DNA from: a virus | IMG/VR virus record: IMGVR_UViG_3300033144_003181 | Coordinates: 1-26,706 of that record | Reading direction: 5' to 3' (one strand) | Length of the DNA stretch: 26,706 nucleotides | Shown here: piece by piece, positions 3,529 to 26,451 of the stretch | How the letters are laid out: every line of letters begins with the position of its first letter | Position numbering within the stretch: position 1 is the stretch's first letter | Made by a program: the position numbers and the translations under genes | The notes under the pieces: generated by a model | What the model saw: the letters and a program-made list of their open reading frames with translations, nothing else | Database searches by the model: none | What the model was told of the DNA's origin: nothing

Positions 3529-4791
3529 ATGTCAAGACTAAAAGATGCTTACAACGCATTAGTAGGAACTAAGAATCATAGTTTTAGTTATGAGAAGCCC
3601 TTATACAGGGCTCTCTCTAATTTTCTGTACGGAGAAGATACCCTAGAAAAACTTATTTCAGAAGGATATGCAGGAAATAATCATGTATATTCCATAGTTA
3701 ACAGTATTGCTGAAAGTGGTGCTGATATTCCTTTATTAATTACAGACACTAAATCAAATGGTGATGTAGAAATTATTGATGGTGGTGACTTCTATGATTT
3801 TGTTCATAATCCTAACCCAGAAGAAAACTACAAATCTTTTACTTATAAGTCTTTAGTTTACCAATTAATAACTGGAAACGAAATACATTATGGTGTTAAA
3901 GGTGTTGGTTCAAACTACTTTACAGAAAGATGGAACTTAGCACCTCAATATATTATTCCAAAGGTTACTAATCTAATAACTGGACCACAAGCAACATCTT
4001 ACAAGTACAACTATAACAGTAAGGAATATAATTTGGATGTTGAAGAAGTTATGCACCTAAGAAAGTTTAATCCAGACCCTGCAGACGAAAATGCTGTAAT
4101 GGGATTGAGTCCTTTATCGGCAGCATATAGAACTTTATCGGCATCAAATGAAATAATAACGGCTGATGCTTCTTTAATTAAAAACAAAGGTGCTATCGGA
4201 TTATTATCTTCTAAAGGTGATAGAGGTGTCACGCCAGAACAAGGTAAAGAATTAGATAAAGCTTTAAAGTCTAAAATAGGGGGTGGTGAAAACTTTGGTT
4301 CTATTAAAGTGACTGGCGGAAACTTTGACTATATAAAGTTTGCTATGTCTCCTGCAGATTTACAAATATTAGAAAGTGGAATTGTTAAACTTAGAGACTT
4401 ATGTTCTGTTTATGGGGTAAGTTCAAGGATGTTTAATGACCCTAATGGAACTACTTTTAATAACTCTAAAGAAGATGGTAAGAAGTTTTATACTAGAGGT
4501 GTTTTACCTCCATTAAGAAATGACTTAGACCACTTTAATAAATTCTTTGTAACAGGATGGAATGAAAGAGATAATGCTAACTATAAGGTTGATTTAGATT
4601 TATCTAGTATAGAGGCTTTACAGGAAGATAAGAAAATGGAAGCAGAAAAGGATAAGATTGTTATGGATGGGGTTAATGTTATATTAAATATGCCAATATC
4701 TCCAGAAGGTAAGAAAACTTTATTAATAGATACTTATGGTTTTGATGAAGTTGCTGCCGAATTAATTACTAATGTTCAAGAAAATGAGTAA
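3529..4791 (+). CDS. Portal protein (HK97/phage_portal type)
   Basis: The 420-residue protein forms the dodecameric ring at the head vertex that docks the terminase and later the tail connectors. Recognisable portal features include the N-terminal helix with GNNHVYSIVNSIAESGADIPLLI (split across about residues 48-72). HLRKFNPDP and MGLSPLSAAYRTL mark the central wing-to-stem region, and CSVYGVSSRMFNDPNGTTFNNSKE precedes the C-terminal helices. Gene order TerL-portal-protease-capsid supports the call. The stop overlaps the protease start by 8 bases (ATGAGTAA), implying translational coupling. Confidence 0.92.
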   Translation: MSRLKDAYNALVGTKNHSFSYEKPLYRALSNFLYGEDTLEKLISEGYAGNNHVYSIVNSIAESGADIPLLITDTKSNGDVEIIDGGDFYDFVHNPNPEENYKSFTYKSLVYQLITGNEIHYGVKGVGSNYFTERWNLAPQYIIPKVTNLITGPQATSYKYNYNSKEYNLDVEEVMHLRKFNPDPADENAVMGLSPLSAAYRTLSASNEIITADASLIKNKGAIGLLSSKGDRGVTPEQGKELDKALKSKIGGGENFGSIKVTGGNFDYIKFAMSPADLQILESGIVKLRDLCSVYGVSSRMFNDPNGTTFNNSKEDGKKFYTRGVLPPLRNDLDHFNKFFVTGWNERDNANYKVDLDLSSIEALQEDKKMEAEKDKIVMDGVNVILNMPISPEGKKTLLIDTYGFDEVAAELITNVQENE

Positions 4792-5665
4792 GAAAACTTT
4801 ACAACAGAAAATGGCTACACACTTTGGTGTTAAAACTTTAGAAGGTGGTAATTCTGTTAAACAGATTGATGAAGATAAAAGAACTGTTCAGTTCATAGCT
4901 AACACATATTTCTTTATTGATTCTGACCAAGACATGTTGATTAAAGGATGTGCTGTTAAATCTATTAACGATAGAGGACCAAAATCACAAGCAAACGCAA
5001 AAATTAAACATCAATCAGACCATGTATTAAATACTAAAAATGTTGTAGGAAGATTTGAAGTGATAGAAGAAAGAAATATAGATGGTAAAGATGTTCTTTA
5101 TTGCGAAAGTCATATACCTACTACAAGTAAGGGTAATGATGATTTAATAAACTACCAAGAAGGATTATATGATAACCACTCTATAGGATTTAGATATAAA
5201 AACATAGTTAAGGCGGTTATGAACTCTACTAATGAAGTAGAGCGTAAAGCATGGGATGAGTTTTACCCTTTAGCATTAAATCCAGAGAAGGCAGATGAAG
5301 AAGGATTCTTTTGGGTGGTTAAAGAAATAGAATTATTTGAAATTAGTGTTGTTAGTTATGGAGCTAACGAACTTACACCAACAATAGGGAGTAAGTCTAA
5401 AGATGCTAATATTAAAATAAAGAGTAATCTAATTGACAGATTAGACGAATTAAATAGACAACTTAAATCAAGCGTGGATTCTAAAAGTGACCGTTCTCTT
5501 ATGGGTATGGAAATTTTACAGATGAAGCAAATAATCAACGATTTGAAATTAATCGAGCCATCAAAAAAGGACACTCATGTAGAGCCGTCTAATAATGATA
5601 CAGATGACAGCAAATCAAAAACAATTAATCCAATTAAAAACCTTTCAAAAAATTATAAGAAATGA
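4784..5665 (+). CDS. Prohead protease (HK97/S78-type) with long C-terminal extension
   Basis: The 293-residue protein has a serine protease domain in roughly residues 25-200. The His region is KHQSDHVLN (H76 or H80 as catalytic His), and the serine motif is DNHSIGFRY (S133). FEISVVSYGANELTPT near 185-200 is typical of the domain end. It matures the capsid by removing the delta domain from the coat protein. The ATG at 4784 overlaps the portal stop by 8 bases; an in-frame ATG at 4772 would add only MFKK. Residues about 205-293 form an additional charged, helical tail rich in Lys, Asp and Ser. It is absent from minimal proteases and could supply scaffold function (inference). The stop overlaps the capsid start as ATGA. 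Confidence 0.88.
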   Translation: MSKKTLQQKMATHFGVKTLEGGNSVKQIDEDKRTVQFIANTYFFIDSDQDMLIKGCAVKSINDRGPKSQANAKIKHQSDHVLNTKNVVGRFEVIEERNIDGKDVLYCESHIPTTSKGNDDLINYQEGLYDNHSIGFRYKNIVKAVMNSTNEVERKAWDEFYPLALNPEKADEEGFFWVVKEIELFEISVVSYGANELTPTIGSKSKDANIKIKSNLIDRLDELNRQLKSSVDSKSDRSLMGMEILQMKQIINDLKLIEPSKKDTHVEPSNNDTDDSKSKTINPIKNLSKNYKK

Positions 5666-11717: not shown

Positions 11718-12101
11718 ATGGGTTATAAACCTTATAAATATTGGACTAGGGAGGAGTTATTTAACCATGTTACTAATCAATGTATTGAAATGGGTAATGA
11801 TGATTTAATATCTATTTTTGGAGATATTATTTTTGATAAAAGATGGAATCCAATGGAAAATTATAACGGCTGTAATATTATAGCTGATAGACTACACCCG
11901 TTTCCACCTTGTTTAAAACATGATTTTGATTGGTTGGTTTTAGGGGGTGGCATAAAATATGACAGAGAATTTAAAGAGCTTTGTCATAGTTTTGGGGCTT
12001 CAAAATTTAAGTCTAAATTAAACTTTATAGGTGTTAGAATAGGATGGATATTCTTTTATAAGTGGTCTAAAATTTGGAAAAGATATAAGAATTTAAAATG
12101 A
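11718..12101 (+). CDS. Phospholipase-A2-like protein (putative)
   Basis: The 127-residue protein carries C65-L-K-H68-D69-F-D71-W72 followed by G76-G77-G78, D82 and C89. The Cys-x2-His-Asp centre with aromatic/Asp partners and a later Asp is the arrangement of small PLA2-fold enzymes, in which the His-Asp dyad activates water to cleave the sn-2 ester of phospholipids. NYNGCN (C52) precedes it and might stand in for the calcium loop. The C-terminus is hydrophobic and basic (about 103-120, FIGVRIGWIFFYKW), which could contact membrane. Two membrane proteins lie directly upstream. The fold is judged by eye from few residues, so a non-enzymatic relative is possible. Confidence 0.5.
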   Translation: MGYKPYKYWTREELFNHVTNQCIEMGNDDLISIFGDIIFDKRWNPMENYNGCNIIADRLHPFPPCLKHDFDWLVLGGGIKYDREFKELCHSFGASKFKSKLNFIGVRIGWIFFYKWSKIWKRYKNLK

Positions 12102-12808
12102 ATAAACAAACAGTTGATATAATAGGTGATTTTGTAGATAATATTTCTGCTGAAGTTGTTATTTCAGAAGTTATAGATAATGGAAACGGTAGTTATACTT
12201 TAATTACTAATTGCACTTGGTGGGTTTCTATCTGTCACACATACGAAATAGATGGGTTTAAATACATAGTTGATTCTTTTTCTATTAACCAAAGTATAAC
12301 AGTTAAGCCAGTAGGACACGCAAATATTCCAATTCCAACTACACTAACATTATTACCCCCTAATTATATACATGGTACTCTTAAAATGGCTGGTAATGAA
12401 GTTGATGGTGAAACTGATAAAACAAAACTATGTCCTTTTGTTTATTTATTTGAGATAATAACAGATAGAAAAAATACAGATGAAGAATCTATGATAGATA
12501 GAGAAGTTGATTTAAGATTATTTTTCTTAAACTCTGTTAATACTAAGGACTGGCTAACAAATGAACATTATGAATATTTTGTCAACCCAATGCAACAGAT
12601 GGTTGACTTATTTATCTATAATATAAAGAACTCAAAACTATTCACTGATGAAGTACGTCACGAATGTACACCTTTGATTAATGTTTCTGAACAAGGAACA
12701 AAAGAAAAGTCCGTATTTGACTGTAATTTATCTGGGATAGAATTAAGAATTTTTGCTGAAATACGCGAAGATTTAAGTTGTACGAGTAAAAATAAATGTA
12801 AATGTTAA
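12098..12808 (+). CDS. Hypothetical protein, probable neck/tail component
   Basis: The 236-residue soluble protein has a beta-rich N-terminal domain (TVDIIGDFVDNIS, NGSYTLITNCTWW, SINQSITVKPVG, TLTLLPPNYIHG). A helical middle follows (EHYEYFVNPMQQMVDLFIYNIKNS). The C-terminus is Cys-rich (CTSKNKCKC). It lies just before the probable tail-tube gene, so a tail terminator or connector function is plausible in the order neck-tube-chaperone-tape measure. No motif confirms this. It overlaps the phospholipase-like gene by 4 bases (ATGA). Confidence 0.55.
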   Translation: MNKQTVDIIGDFVDNISAEVVISEVIDNGNGSYTLITNCTWWVSICHTYEIDGFKYIVDSFSINQSITVKPVGHANIPIPTTLTLLPPNYIHGTLKMAGNEVDGETDKTKLCPFVYLFEIITDRKNTDEESMIDREVDLRLFFLNSVNTKDWLTNEHYEYFVNPMQQMVDLFIYNIKNSKLFTDEVRHECTPLINVSEQGTKEKSVFDCNLSGIELRIFAEIREDLSCTSKNKCKC

Positions 12809-13996: not shown

Positions 13997-14470
13997 ATGG
14001 CAAATGAGTTTTTTCAACCAATAAGAGATATATTAAATGGTATAATTTCTTTAGATATTGATTTGGTTGCTCAAGAAATAGCCAAAACTAATGATTTTAA
14101 GAAACTTGTAATAACTTTAAACACGGAAGGGCAACCAACATCTCAACTATTTATTTTAGGTGAAGATGCAACAGGAAGAAATTTAAAAAGTATTGGAGGA
14201 GATTATTCACCTTTTACGAAAAGAGAAAAAGCTAGGAAAGGTCAGCCAACTGATAGAGTTACTTTAAAAGATGAAGGTGATTTTTATAGGTCTTTTAATG
14301 TTGTACCATTTAAAGGTGGTTTTACAATAGAGGCTGATACGTTTAAAGATGGTCAAGATTTACAAGATAGATGGGGTGATAATATTTTAGGGTTAAATGA
14401 TGAAAATATAAATATTATTATTAACTTTTACATTAATGCTATTCAAGAGAAAATCAACCAAAGAATATAA
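13997..14470 (+). CDS. Putative tail-completion/neck protein
   Basis: The 157-residue soluble protein has an N-terminal helix (FFQPIRDILNGIISLD), then GDYSPFTKREKARKGQPTDR and TLKDEGDFYRSFNVVPFKGG. The last part (a basic loop followed by D-G-x-F-Y-x-S) is typical of phage head-tail joining or tail-completion proteins of the HK97-gp10-like kind found in Bacteroidota phages. The C-terminus has DRWGDNILGLNDENI. It starts 12 bases after the terminator stem. Its 3' end overlaps the next ORF by 35 bases. Confidence 0.55.
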   Translation: MANEFFQPIRDILNGIISLDIDLVAQEIAKTNDFKKLVITLNTEGQPTSQLFILGEDATGRNLKSIGGDYSPFTKREKARKGQPTDRVTLKDEGDFYRSFNVVPFKGGFTIEADTFKDGQDLQDRWGDNILGLNDENINIIINFYINAIQEKINQRI

Positions 14471-14915
14471 TGCAAATCTTTATGATTCTATTGATGAATT
14501 ACCAATAAAAATATGGTTTGAAATTCATAAAACAGGTGATTATAGTTTATTAATCAAAGGTAAATTGAAAATAAATGATTATATTATAGATAAATGTGAT
14601 AAAAAGTGGGCTGAATTATATAATGAATACATAGATAAGTTTGGTTTATCTGAAGAGTTTTTAGTTGACTTAGATAGTCAAATTGAATTAGCACAGCAAA
14701 AGGCAGAATATATAATAAATGGAGATAGATATTTAAAGACTTTAATAAAAATAGGGGAAGAAAAATTAAAGGAAAATAGAACAGGGGAAGTTAAACCAGT
14801 AGAATTAGAAGTATTATTGGCAAAGATGTCTAAATACTACGGTTTTAAACTTGAATCTAGGGAGTTAACGGTAACGCAATATTACAGTTATTTAAAAACA
14901 ATAAATAATGGCTAA
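14436..14915 (+). CDS. Probable tail-assembly protein ahead of the tape measure
   Basis: The 159-residue helical protein contains YDSIDELPIKIWFEIHK, a phrase (LYDSI-ELPI) seen near the start of proteins encoded just upstream of tape measures in related phages. The ATG at 14436 lies inside the previous gene (35-base overlap); no other in-frame ATG occurs before MSKYYG near the end. The recognisable part begins at residue 14, so the true start could be a near-cognate codon, or the product could come from a frame change in the preceding gene. It overlaps the tape-measure start by 8 bases (ATGGCTAA). Confidence 0.6.
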   Translation: MLFKRKSTKEYNANLYDSIDELPIKIWFEIHKTGDYSLLIKGKLKINDYIIDKCDKKWAELYNEYIDKFGLSEEFLVDLDSQIELAQQKAEYIINGDRYLKTLIKIGEEKLKENRTGEVKPVELEVLLAKMSKYYGFKLESRELTVTQYYSYLKTINNG

Positions 14916-15306
14916 AAGAGTAAGTAATCAAGATTTATTTGAAAAGGATTTATTTGCCAAAACGGTAAATGAAGCCGAAAAGCTTATTGATGTATTGGAT
15001 GGTATTGAAAAGGGATTAAAGGATGTTGCTAAGGCACAAAAGGAAATATTAAATAATCAAGATAATAAAACCTTTGAAAGCATACAAAAAACAAAGGTAG
15101 CAGTAGAAGAACTTAATGAGGCTGAAAGAATAGCGGAAAAGATTGCTAAAGATAAGATTAAGTTAGAGAAAAGACTTTCTCAGTCTAGAGATGAATCTGA
15201 AAAATCAAATACAGAGTTAAAAGTTCTTATACAGGAACAAAATAAACTTAATAAAGAGTTAGCGAAAGAAACTTTAGGGCTTACAGACGGACTAGAGAGC
15301 TTTTAA
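14908..15306 (+). CDS. Tape measure protein, N-terminal part (frame-interrupted)
   Basis: The 132-residue ORF starts [20 protein letters not shown], typical of the N-terminus of Bacteroidota-phage tape-measure proteins. It continues as long charged helices ([20 protein letters not shown], then [16 protein letters not shown]) and stops abruptly at TAA 15304-15306 after GLTDGLESF. The rest of the protein continues in the -1 frame, open from 15255. The tape measure sets tail length and is expelled during DNA injection. The ORF is too short to be a complete tape measure, so it represents either one half of a frameshifted product or a broken gene. It overlaps the upstream gene by 8 bases. Confidence 0.75.
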
Positions 15307-17522
15307 GAGAGATTACAAAACTTGATAGGGAATTAAAAGAGGTTGACGAATCTGTAGGGCAGTTTCAAAGAAGTATAGGTGAATATCCTAGTGCTGTTAA
15401 TTCAGCTACAGCATCTTTAGAAAATTTTGCCACTGGAGCATTAACTGTTGGGACTGTTTTAAGTGGTTTGAAAACATCATTAGAGGATTCTGCTGATGGG
15501 GCAGAAAAATTACGTAAAGCATCAGCGACTATAGAGGGTGGATTGAGTCAGGTTAAAAATGTTGCGGCTAACGCTGCTGTTGATTTCTTTAGTTTCGCAA
15601 AATCTTTAGCCGAAGGTGATGAGCAAGCATTAAATCTAGCTGGAAATGTATTAAAAAGTACTTCTGCATTAGGATTTTTCCTAGATAAGTCTGAGGATAC
15701 AGGTGAGTTTTTTGACAATACAGCAGAGTCAGCAGAGAATTTTTCAGGCAAGGTTCTTGAATCTGCAAATGCAGCTTTAGAGCTTGAAAACCGTATTATA
15801 GCATTCGAAAAGGCTACAAGACCCTTAGAAGTTAGGATAGAAAGGCTTAATGGTCTTATAGAACAACAATCTATAATAGCTGGAGACAGTACTAGGTCTT
15901 TTAATGAAATATCTGACGCCATACTTAAAGGTCAAGACTTACAGGTTAAAAGAGCAGATATAAACCTAAGACTTGCTAAGGAGGAGTTAGAGATAACACA
16001 AGAAAGGATTAGAATAAGAAATTTAGCAGGAGGAGCTAGTGTTGAATTGCTCAACCAAGAAACTGAAGCTATAAAAGCTGTTATAAATGCAGAGAATGAG
16101 CTTAAGAACGAAATACTTGAAAACGAAAAAGAGTTAAGGCAAGTTAAGCAGGATAGACTTGAGATTGATTTAGATATTTTAATTGACGGTTTTGACAATC
16201 AAAAAACTATAAATGAAAGAATTATAGCAAATGAAAAAGAAACTCTGGAGACTAGAGCAGCTTTATTTGAGCAAACAAGAAAGTTGGCAGAAGACAGTTT
16301 TAGAGGTCAAAAAGAAGTTTTAGAGGAGTTGTCAGCGGCAAACATAGATGTTGATGAGTTGTTATTGTTGGATGCTACTGAGTTAGCAAAGCAGATACAG
16401 TTATTAGAACAATCAGAGATAATAAACACTAGAACTCTAGAGGTTATAAGAGAGAGGAGAACTGTTCTACAAGACTTAGATGACGCACAACAAGACCTTA
16501 ATGAATCACAACAAGAGGGTATTGACTTACAGAAAGAAATACTCGCTCAAGAAGAGGCTTTAGGAAAACAATCGGAGGGTAATTTTTCTGAAAACACAAA
16601 GGCTTTGGATGATTTAGAAAAAGACAGGCTGAAAAATCAAAAAGAAAACATAAGAAGGAGGCTTGAGAATGTTAAGTCTGGCTCAATAGAAGAGCTTAGA
16701 TTGAGAAAAGAATTAAACGACCTATTGTTGCATGAGGCTGAAGAATCCAATAACAAACAAAGGGAGCTACAAGAAAAGGAGGATGAAGAGAGAAAACAGT
16801 TTGTTCAAGATGCTATAAATACAATAGGAGATATTATTGATGAAGGTTTTGATAAAAGAATAGATGCCATAAACGAAAAACTTGACGCAACAAGTCAAAA
16901 TATCGATAGGTTAAGAGATAAAGCTGCTGAAGGTAGATTAGCCTCTGAAGAAAGTTTAGCATTTGAACAAAAACAAGAAGCAGAACTAGAAAGACAAAGA
17001 GAGCAGACAAGAAAAAGACAGGAAAGAACTAAAGCACTTTTTGCAGTTCTTGAATCATTTACAGCTAATGAAGGCGACCTTCCTAAAACTATAGCCGACA
17101 TAAGTGTGTTAAGAGCGTTATCTGGAAGTCTTACAGGTTTCTCCGATGGTGGTTATACTGGTGATGGTGGTAAATATGAAAACGCTGGAATAGTACATAA
17201 AGGTGAGTTTGTAATTGATAAAGAAACAACTAGCAAGATAGGACTTAGAGGTGCTACAATGAAGGATTTTAACAACCGTTTAAGTTCTATGAATGATATT
17301 ATATCTTATGATGGCTCTAATGAATTTATGAGTGCTAAAGCTTTTTCACTAAACGGCTTGGATACAACTGTATTAGAGAGCAAAATGGATACTTTAAATA
17401 GCAGCATAAATAATATAGATATTCCTGAAGGGATGGTTAAATTTGACGATGTAAGAGGTTTAATAAATTTTATATCAAAAAAAGGTAATAAAATAACTAA
17501 AGAAAGAAGTAAATTATACTAA
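15255..17522 (+). CDS. Tape measure protein, main part (-1 frame relative to N-terminal part)
   Basis: The frame is open from 15255 (after TAA 15252-15254) to TAA 17520-17522. It has no ATG near its beginning; the first conventional alternative start is TTG at 15468. The region before that TTG clearly encodes tape-measure sequence: [20 protein letters not shown], then [20 protein letters not shown], matching the [15 protein letters not shown] motif of the family. A long helical coiled-coil body follows. The C-terminal motif [11 protein letters not shown]...[19 protein letters not shown] is diagnostic of these proteins. Joined with the 14908 ORF the protein would be about 870 residues. Whether the join is by programmed frameshift, sequence error or mutation is open. 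Confidence 0.82.
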
Positions 17523-19247
17523 ATGTCTAATATTTCTAAAAATACAGAGTCTAAATATAGGTTAAACGGTATAACAAGTAACGCACCTATAGATTGGAGT
17601 GACGTTACTATAGAGGCTGAGTATGAAAATGATTCTGTACAACCAAATCTAACCATATCTGAGTTTAATTTTAACTTAGAATCTAGGAAGGCTATAAACG
17701 AGTGGATAGCTAATGGAACTACTTCTGGTGTTGGGATATTTGAGGGTATGCCTTTTGAGTTAGATATATTTAACAATAATGGTGTAGCAAAAACATTTAA
17801 AGCGTTTATAGATTTTACTGAGAGTTACAATGACCTAACTGATGATGGTGAGGTGTTAGTATCTATAATGAAGGATGGAGATATAGAAAACTTTTTTGAT
17901 AAACTAAACGGAACTACTTGTGGATACCTTGAAGAGATAGGTGTTTTTACAAGTGCAGACTATATAAATGTTCCCTATGTTGTTGAGAAAAAATTTAATC
18001 TATTTGAAATTCTACTAACATCTATAGTTTTATATTTAATGGTTAAAGAATTGGCTGAATCTATTAGAAACACTTCAGAATCTATCGCTACTGCCAGTGG
18101 TATATTTTCTGCTGGATTTACTGGTTCTGTTGGTAGTGCTATATATTTAGCTTTAATAGCAATAGTTAATATTATTTATACAGCTATATTAGTGTTAGCA
18201 ATAATAGAATTAGCAAAATCATTATTTAATACACTAATATCTCCATTAAGAACACACAAAGCCATATTACTAAAGACTGCACTAACTAAGATAGCTAATC
18301 ATTTTGGTTATGACTTTGTGTGTCCTGTTGAAGAGTACAATAATTTAGTTTACCTACCATCAAACCCTAACTTAGATGAAAAAACATTATTTGGATTTGT
18401 TAGTGTTACCAAAGGCACTCCATCTGGCATACCAAACAATTTAGACTACGGATATTTTACAGAAGACCTCTTTAATCTTGCAAAAAGAATACCATACGCT
18501 AAAATGCAGTTAATAGGCAATACTATACATCTTAGACCTGAAAACGACCCGTTTTGGGAGATGCAATCAACCTGGGTGATGCCAGATATAAAATTAAACA
18601 CATTACAATATAATACAGAAGACCTTCAGTCAACTAGATTAATGTCTTTTCAAGTAGATTTAAATGATGAATGGACTATAGATAATTATGACAGAACTGC
18701 TGTAGAGATAAAAACAGACCCTATATCTGTAATTAATGAAAGAGCTGTTCTTTTAAAAGGTTTGGAAGAGGTTGATTATAATACTGCTTTAGGAAATAGA
18801 AAAGACAATCTTAATGCTGTAGAGAAGTTGTTAAAAACTGTAGGGGCTTTTATAGACTCTACTACGTCTTTTCTTGGTAGTAGCTCTAACTTTTCAGGAC
18901 TTATACAAAATAAGATATGTTCATTAAAGCAAACTTCAAACTGGCATTCTCTACCAAAATTATTATATATGACTGGAGGTTTTTTACCTGTTAATCATAG
19001 AGATTTATTTAATGCAGAGGTTTTATGGGATAAGTATCATGTTGAAAAATCTTTTGTACAAAATAATTGGAGAGGCCAAAAATACATTTATAGAGGTATA
19101 GATATTCCTTTTGGTGTAGAAGATTTTTTAAAGTTAACAGATAATTCTTTCTTTACATTTGAAGGAAAACAAGCAAAAATAATTAAATTTGTATGGACTA
19201 CAGGAGAAGACACTGCTAAAATAGATTTTTGGGTAAGAGAACCTTAA
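17523..19247 (+). CDS. Distal tail/baseplate protein with hydrophobic segments
   Basis: The 574-residue protein directly follows the tape-measure stop. The N-terminal domain (1-155, YRLNGITSNAPIDWSDVTIE, then FEGMPFELDIFNNN) has the look of a distal-tail domain. Two hydrophobic stretches follow at about 157-175 (FNLFEILLTSIVLYLMV) and 203-232 (GSAIYLALIAIVNIIYTAIL), long enough to span a membrane. The C-terminal part is soluble and strand-rich (YHVEKSFVQNNWRGQKYIYRG; FTFEGKQAKIIKFVW), like hub proteins. Hydrophobic segments inside a tail-tip protein suggest contact with the cell envelope during injection; that is inference. Confidence 0.62.
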   Translation: MSNISKNTESKYRLNGITSNAPIDWSDVTIEAEYENDSVQPNLTISEFNFNLESRKAINEWIANGTTSGVGIFEGMPFELDIFNNNGVAKTFKAFIDFTESYNDLTDDGEVLVSIMKDGDIENFFDKLNGTTCGYLEEIGVFTSADYINVPYVVEKKFNLFEILLTSIVLYLMVKELAESIRNTSESIATASGIFSAGFTGSVGSAIYLALIAIVNIIYTAILVLAIIELAKSLFNTLISPLRTHKAILLKTALTKIANHFGYDFVCPVEEYNNLVYLPSNPNLDEKTLFGFVSVTKGTPSGIPNNLDYGYFTEDLFNLAKRIPYAKMQLIGNTIHLRPENDPFWEMQSTWVMPDIKLNTLQYNTEDLQSTRLMSFQVDLNDEWTIDNYDRTAVEIKTDPISVINERAVLLKGLEEVDYNTALGNRKDNLNAVEKLLKTVGAFIDSTTSFLGSSSNFSGLIQNKICSLKQTSNWHSLPKLLYMTGGFLPVNHRDLFNAEVLWDKYHVEKSFVQNNWRGQKYIYRGIDIPFGVEDFLKLTDNSFFTFEGKQAKIIKFVWTTGEDTAKIDFWVREP

Positions 19248-19291
19248 CCTTACACATTTAACTTAAAAGAAACTAAAATAATACCAAGCTA

Positions 19292-25998: not shown

Positions 25999-26451
25999 AT
26001 GGATTTAGACGATTTAAAAAAAGAAATACCCTTTAAATGGAGGGTTCAAAGCTCAAACCAATATGGTGCTAGTTGTGTTGCTTATATTGATGCTAGAGAT
26101 GTTCAAGATGTACTAGATGAAGTTTGTGGTGCTGATAAATGGCAATGTAAATATTCAGAACATAAAGGAAATTTATTTTGTTCTATTGCTATATTAGATA
26201 AGCATGGTTCTTGGGTATGGAAAGAAGATTGTGGAACTGAATCAAATGTTGAAAAGCAAAAAGGTGAAGCATCAGATGCTTTTAAAAGGGCTGCGGTAAT
26301 GTGGGGAATCGGTAGGTTTTTATATTCTAAAACTATTGTAAAGTTGCCAGTAAAAGAAAAGAACGGTAAATGGTTACCATATTCAGAAAATACAGGAAAG
26401 TTTGTTTATGGGGATAATATAACAAAATGGTGTAACCAATTAAGTAAATAA
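25999..26451 (+). CDS. Rad52-type single-strand annealing protein
   Basis: The 150-residue protein matches the short phage Rad52/22 annealing proteins (Sak-like). It has an N-terminal helix (LDDLKKEIPFKWRVQSS) and VAYIDARDVQDVLDEVCGAD (48-67). The diagnostic segment, split here, is KQKGEASDAFKRAAVMWGIG then RFLYS (about residues 91-115). Such proteins anneal complementary single-stranded DNA and support phage recombination and replication together with a nuclease and an SSB. Its length fits the catalytic core without the extra C-terminal domain of eukaryotic Rad52. It sits second in the operon behind the promoter and ends 6 bases before the next gene. Confidence 0.88.
   Translation: MDLDDLKKEIPFKWRVQSSNQYGASCVAYIDARDVQDVLDEVCGADKWQCKYSEHKGNLFCSIAILDKHGSWVWKEDCGTESNVEKQKGEASDAFKRAAVMWGIGRFLYSKTIVKLPVKEKNGKWLPYSENTGKFVYGDNITKWCNQLSK

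Follow-up and report, generated by a model that had tools for sequence, protein, structure and literature searches.

In the lambda-type G/GT system, a programmed −1 frameshift at a slippery site operates in the genes for the tail assembly chaperones, and this arrangement is conserved across phages (PMC5009743). The tape measure of phage TP901-1 has been studied through engineered deletions, and its N-terminal 154 residues are needed for infectivity (PMC5099701). Among phage records, the only phage with a tape measure similar to the one considered here is Croceibacter phage P2559Y.

The stretch of DNA that we analysed, referred to below as the window, covers 26.7 kb of a virus record (IMGVR_UViG_3300033144_003181, positions 1 to 26,706) and has a G+C content of 31.5%. 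It carries tailed-phage structural genes for terminase, major capsid, tail, and tape measure proteins, and among cellular genomes its relatives turn up in assemblies of Bacteroidetes and Saprospiraceae. A gene at 25999–26451 encodes a Rad52/22-family recombination protein (Pfam PF04098) with 84–85% identity to the copies in two related viral records (L001 and L002), far closer than the tail genes. In the tail module, the tape measure gene comes after a phrog_6195 tail protein and a 159-aa gene and before a phrog_12387 gene, an order that is the same for the homologues in L001 and other relatives. The 159-aa gene (14436–14915), which lies immediately 5′ of the tape measure gene and has homologues in the closer relatives, gave no family match, and its position fits that of a tail assembly chaperone. 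The upstream gene at 13997–14470 was considered as a possible further broken gene given that alignments to it end at 14395; this was rejected, as the gene retains a full C terminus that has simply diverged.

An earlier note on this DNA had described a single tape measure gene divided between two frames, and homology bears this out. Residues 1–136 of the L001 tape measure protein (TMP) match frame 1 (55% identity, tblastn E 7.5e-35) and residues 152–893 match frame 3 (60% identity, tblastn E reported as 0.0); because both halves match one relative protein, the split is not due to chance. The frame 3 product additionally matches the tape-measure families PHROG 24, 1506, and 20660 at E values of 1e-10 to 1e-14, the best being phrog_24 (4.5e-14) and phrog_1506 (5.8e-12). 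The locus therefore shows the profile match of a tape measure gene, together with matches of both frames to the TMP ORFs of relatives, and it occupies the expected tail-module position; it does not form one continuous frame of several hundred residues, being split at 15289–15306. The ORF at 14908–15306 codes 132 residues. The open −1 frame begins at 15255, giving an overlap of 52 nt with this ORF, and has a TTG at 15468 as its first ATG, GTG, or TTG; these coordinates agree with those reported earlier. The break had been placed within 15255–15306, where homology and codon usage do change frame: on a codon-usage score built from the other genes of the window, the preference lies with frame 1 to about 15279 and has passed to frame 3 by 15291. 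The features of the gene are as follows.

14908–15288, plus strand: N-terminal portion of the tape measure gene in frame 1; homology to relatives extends to ...KETLGLTD
15289–15290, plus strand: deletion junction, where the window falls about 85 nt short of its relatives
15289–15306, plus strand: out-of-frame end of the N-terminal ORF, coding GLESF with the stop TAA at 15304–15306, unlike relatives beyond LTD
15291–17522, plus strand: remainder of the tape measure gene, frame 3 (the −1 frame), stop at 17520–17522

In viral contigs, peptides of the downstream half of the gene picked up 35 relatives, and 32 were aligned over the junction. As the search peptides lie downstream of the junction, this set is not biased towards the block found to be missing there. 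The closest TMP relatives are 61–66% identical to the window, and in nearly all relatives the whole tape measure gene is a single open frame from an ATG. Peptide patterns from the N-terminal half retrieved no relative, and this half matched nothing in phage records. Exact probes of 20–25 nt from both sides of the junction and from a second lesion (see below) found no near-identical copy in the viral contigs, and the deleted sequence and its breakpoints are thus estimated from distant relatives.

Across the junction, L001 reads KESLGLTD-AYQKQSKRLNLLRKQYKSLVVEEGKATKESKK-LLREIKKLDKEL, and the corresponding frame 1 stretch of the window, KETLGLTD, ends at 15288, with homology resuming in frame 3 from TREL at 15291. 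Residues of about 127–158 of L001 have no counterpart in either frame of the window, which indicates that the junction lacks more than one base. The spacing from LTD to LLREI is 96 nt in L001 and 11 nt in the window; the 85 nt in question amount to 28 codons plus 1 nt, and their loss therefore leads into the −1 frame. Length is otherwise closely maintained in this region: from the conserved tyrosine (AYxKQSKRLNxLRKxYKxL...) to the GQFQRNVGNY segment there is no length change in 31 of the 32 relatives, and the one exception, L052, is one residue shorter between the tyrosine and VGNY. A 95-residue profile of the segment gave L001 112 bits; the two possible frameshift products reached 52 and 48 bits, low values because both are without the block, and the separate frames scored 12 and 40 bits, with frame 3 matching from TREL onwards.

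We consider that these results are best explained by an out-of-frame deletion of about 85 nt at 15289/15290, to which we assign a probability of roughly 90%. Such a deletion would have taken out a conserved N-terminal block of ~28 codons and shifted the remainder of the gene into the −1 frame, leaving the gene as recorded to yield a 132-residue N-terminal fragment that is probably non-functional. No recoding would be expected to rescue the protein, since a frame change would still produce it without the block kept by all intact relatives compared. The loss presumably occurred as a single event; a two-step history, with an earlier in-frame shortening and then a small indel that changed the frame, is conceivable as well. 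Judged from the sequence, the phage as recorded would have no working tape measure gene.

The earlier note had left three options: programmed frameshifting, an inactivating mutation, or a sequence error. The last two are in keeping with our results; the first, in which −1 ribosomal frameshifting yields a functional fusion of the two tape measure frames, is extremely unlikely. It draws on the 52-nt overlap, on a downstream frame that offers no start before 15468, and on the fact that both possible joins give stop-free proteins. Against this, the slippery heptamer is absent: we found no X-XXY-YYZ sequence anywhere in 15252–15303, in line with the earlier remark that no classical site was evident. 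Nor is there a structured stimulator downstream, as the RNA fold of 15295–15400 is no better than that of shuffles (z of +0.27), RNA folding being the kind of stimulator that this analysis covers. Aligning the tape measures of relatives at this place, a check that had been proposed, showed that the two-frame arrangement is not conserved: none is split at the junction site, and the block is kept. The joined protein would still be without that block, and the programmed frameshift described for tailed phages belongs to the tail chaperone gene rather than to the tape measure gene (PMC5009743). It is likewise most improbable that the phage makes a shortened but working tape measure through unconventional recoding at a non-canonical site.

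Those relatives that do have a frame break carry it elsewhere in the gene, in A or T runs (L002/L007 and L031). L002 and L007 are the same phage from two samples, and both contain several tape measure breaks in adenine-rich stretches of the N-terminal part (4099–4700 in each record), with one further break at about 5560 in L007 compared with L002; a second gene in these records, the homologue of window 12098–12808, is split as well. L031 has its break at about 4960–4970, with one T fewer in a T run than L032. The breaks in the tape measure genes of these three records look like base-level sequence errors. We also considered the L002/L007 split as a conserved frameshift and rejected this, as there are several breaks, in adenine-rich stretches and at other places.

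Loss of a single base, by base calling or point mutation, is another reading, and the earlier note had proposed that one G is missing from GGG at 15277–15279. A difference of one base would link the frames, and the −1 frame starts with AY, like that of many relatives. Frame 1 nevertheless remains homologous after the GGG, through LTD, and with one base restored about 28 residues would still be absent; with about 85 nt gone from the junction, the proposal does not hold, and we regard it as very unlikely. The smooth join from KETLG into AYRR that had been described likewise fails, given that frame 3 homology begins only at TREL (15291). The resemblance of this AYRR to the conserved AY appears to be a coincidence, since the frame 1 match already extends through LTD and the block is absent regardless. 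A further possibility is that two separate proteins are made, the second from the TTG at 15468, where an open frame does have a possible start. Conserved family sequence (LDRELKEVD...) lies upstream of this TTG, however, and the intact relatives encode one protein, so that this scenario can hardly be credited.

The next gene of the tail module also departs from its relatives. This second lesion lies 4 kb downstream of the tape measure junction and is absent from the earlier note.

17523–19247, plus strand: next tail-module gene, phrog_12387 (E 1.6e-74), with a premature TAA at 19245–19247
19241–19252, plus strand: perfect tandem duplication ACCTTA ACCTTA, a 6-nt unit, which creates the TAA
19248–19292, plus strand: orphaned C-terminal codons PYTFNLKETKIIPS plus stop, 14 codons conserved with relatives

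Relatives align through the TAA at 19245–19247, the window carrying 2 inserted residues here; at 19241–19252 they have a single REP/YTF-like passage and no stop, and beyond it YTFNLKETKIIPS is identical to L044 at 13 of 13 residues. Perfect 6-nt tandem duplications are common by chance in the window, and the evidence is therefore the disagreement with relatives rather than the repeat itself. By the proteins of the fetched relatives, no other window gene lies in two frames, in a check that covered all but six genes, those having no relative in the fetched set.

Whether the genome is damaged or an amplification or assembly fault has intervened stands at about even odds, and the two cases should be regarded as variants of the same deletion. 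That the deletion is such an artefact, with the gene intact in the virus, has about an even chance. The sequence flanking the junction is undamaged and conserved, and so are the other window genes that have relatives, which would be odd in a phage without a tape measure; moreover, there are two indels of differing kinds, 4 kb apart, in tail genes, and the assemblies of relatives likewise hold false-looking breaks in the tape measure gene. On the other hand, the 85-nt loss and the 6-nt duplication are not base-call errors of the homopolymer type, and without a longer repeat short-read assemblers rarely produce either. Alternatively, the deletion may be real and the record a recently inactivated, defective or decaying genome or a prophage remnant, which we place somewhat below an even chance. 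The two independent indels, which truncate neighbouring tail genes, point in this direction, and conserved sequence persists downstream of both, as recent inactivation predicts. There are just two lesions in 26.7 kb, however, and a prophage remnant has no independent sign here, with neither host flank nor integrase seen in the window. In either case the finding is an ordinary one, a fault of the gene or of the assembly that involves no special decoding.

On the deletion reading, a supposed case of programmed frameshifting in a tape measure gene proves false. The locus also illustrates how a split reading frame in a metagenomic phage gene can conceal a larger deletion, visible only against relatives. 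For annotation, the record should be treated as holding two broken tail genes.

Compared with the G/GT system, the locus is similar in that a tail-module gene of a tailed phage switches to the −1 frame, but the gene is another one, the locus shows neither slippery site nor conservation, and sequence is missing from it. The tape measure of TP901-1 is comparable in that segments have been deleted from the gene; those deletions were designed, whereas the one in the window would be out of frame and falls at about residue 127, and the parallel is offered as an analogy only, with no known sequence relation. Both halves in the window belong to the tail length tape measure family (PHROG 24, 1506, and 20660), which includes that of Croceibacter phage P2559Y. 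The tape measure genes of the relatives stand in the same order, with the phrog_12387 tail gene next; there the gene is intact, and in the window it probably carries an out-of-frame deletion.
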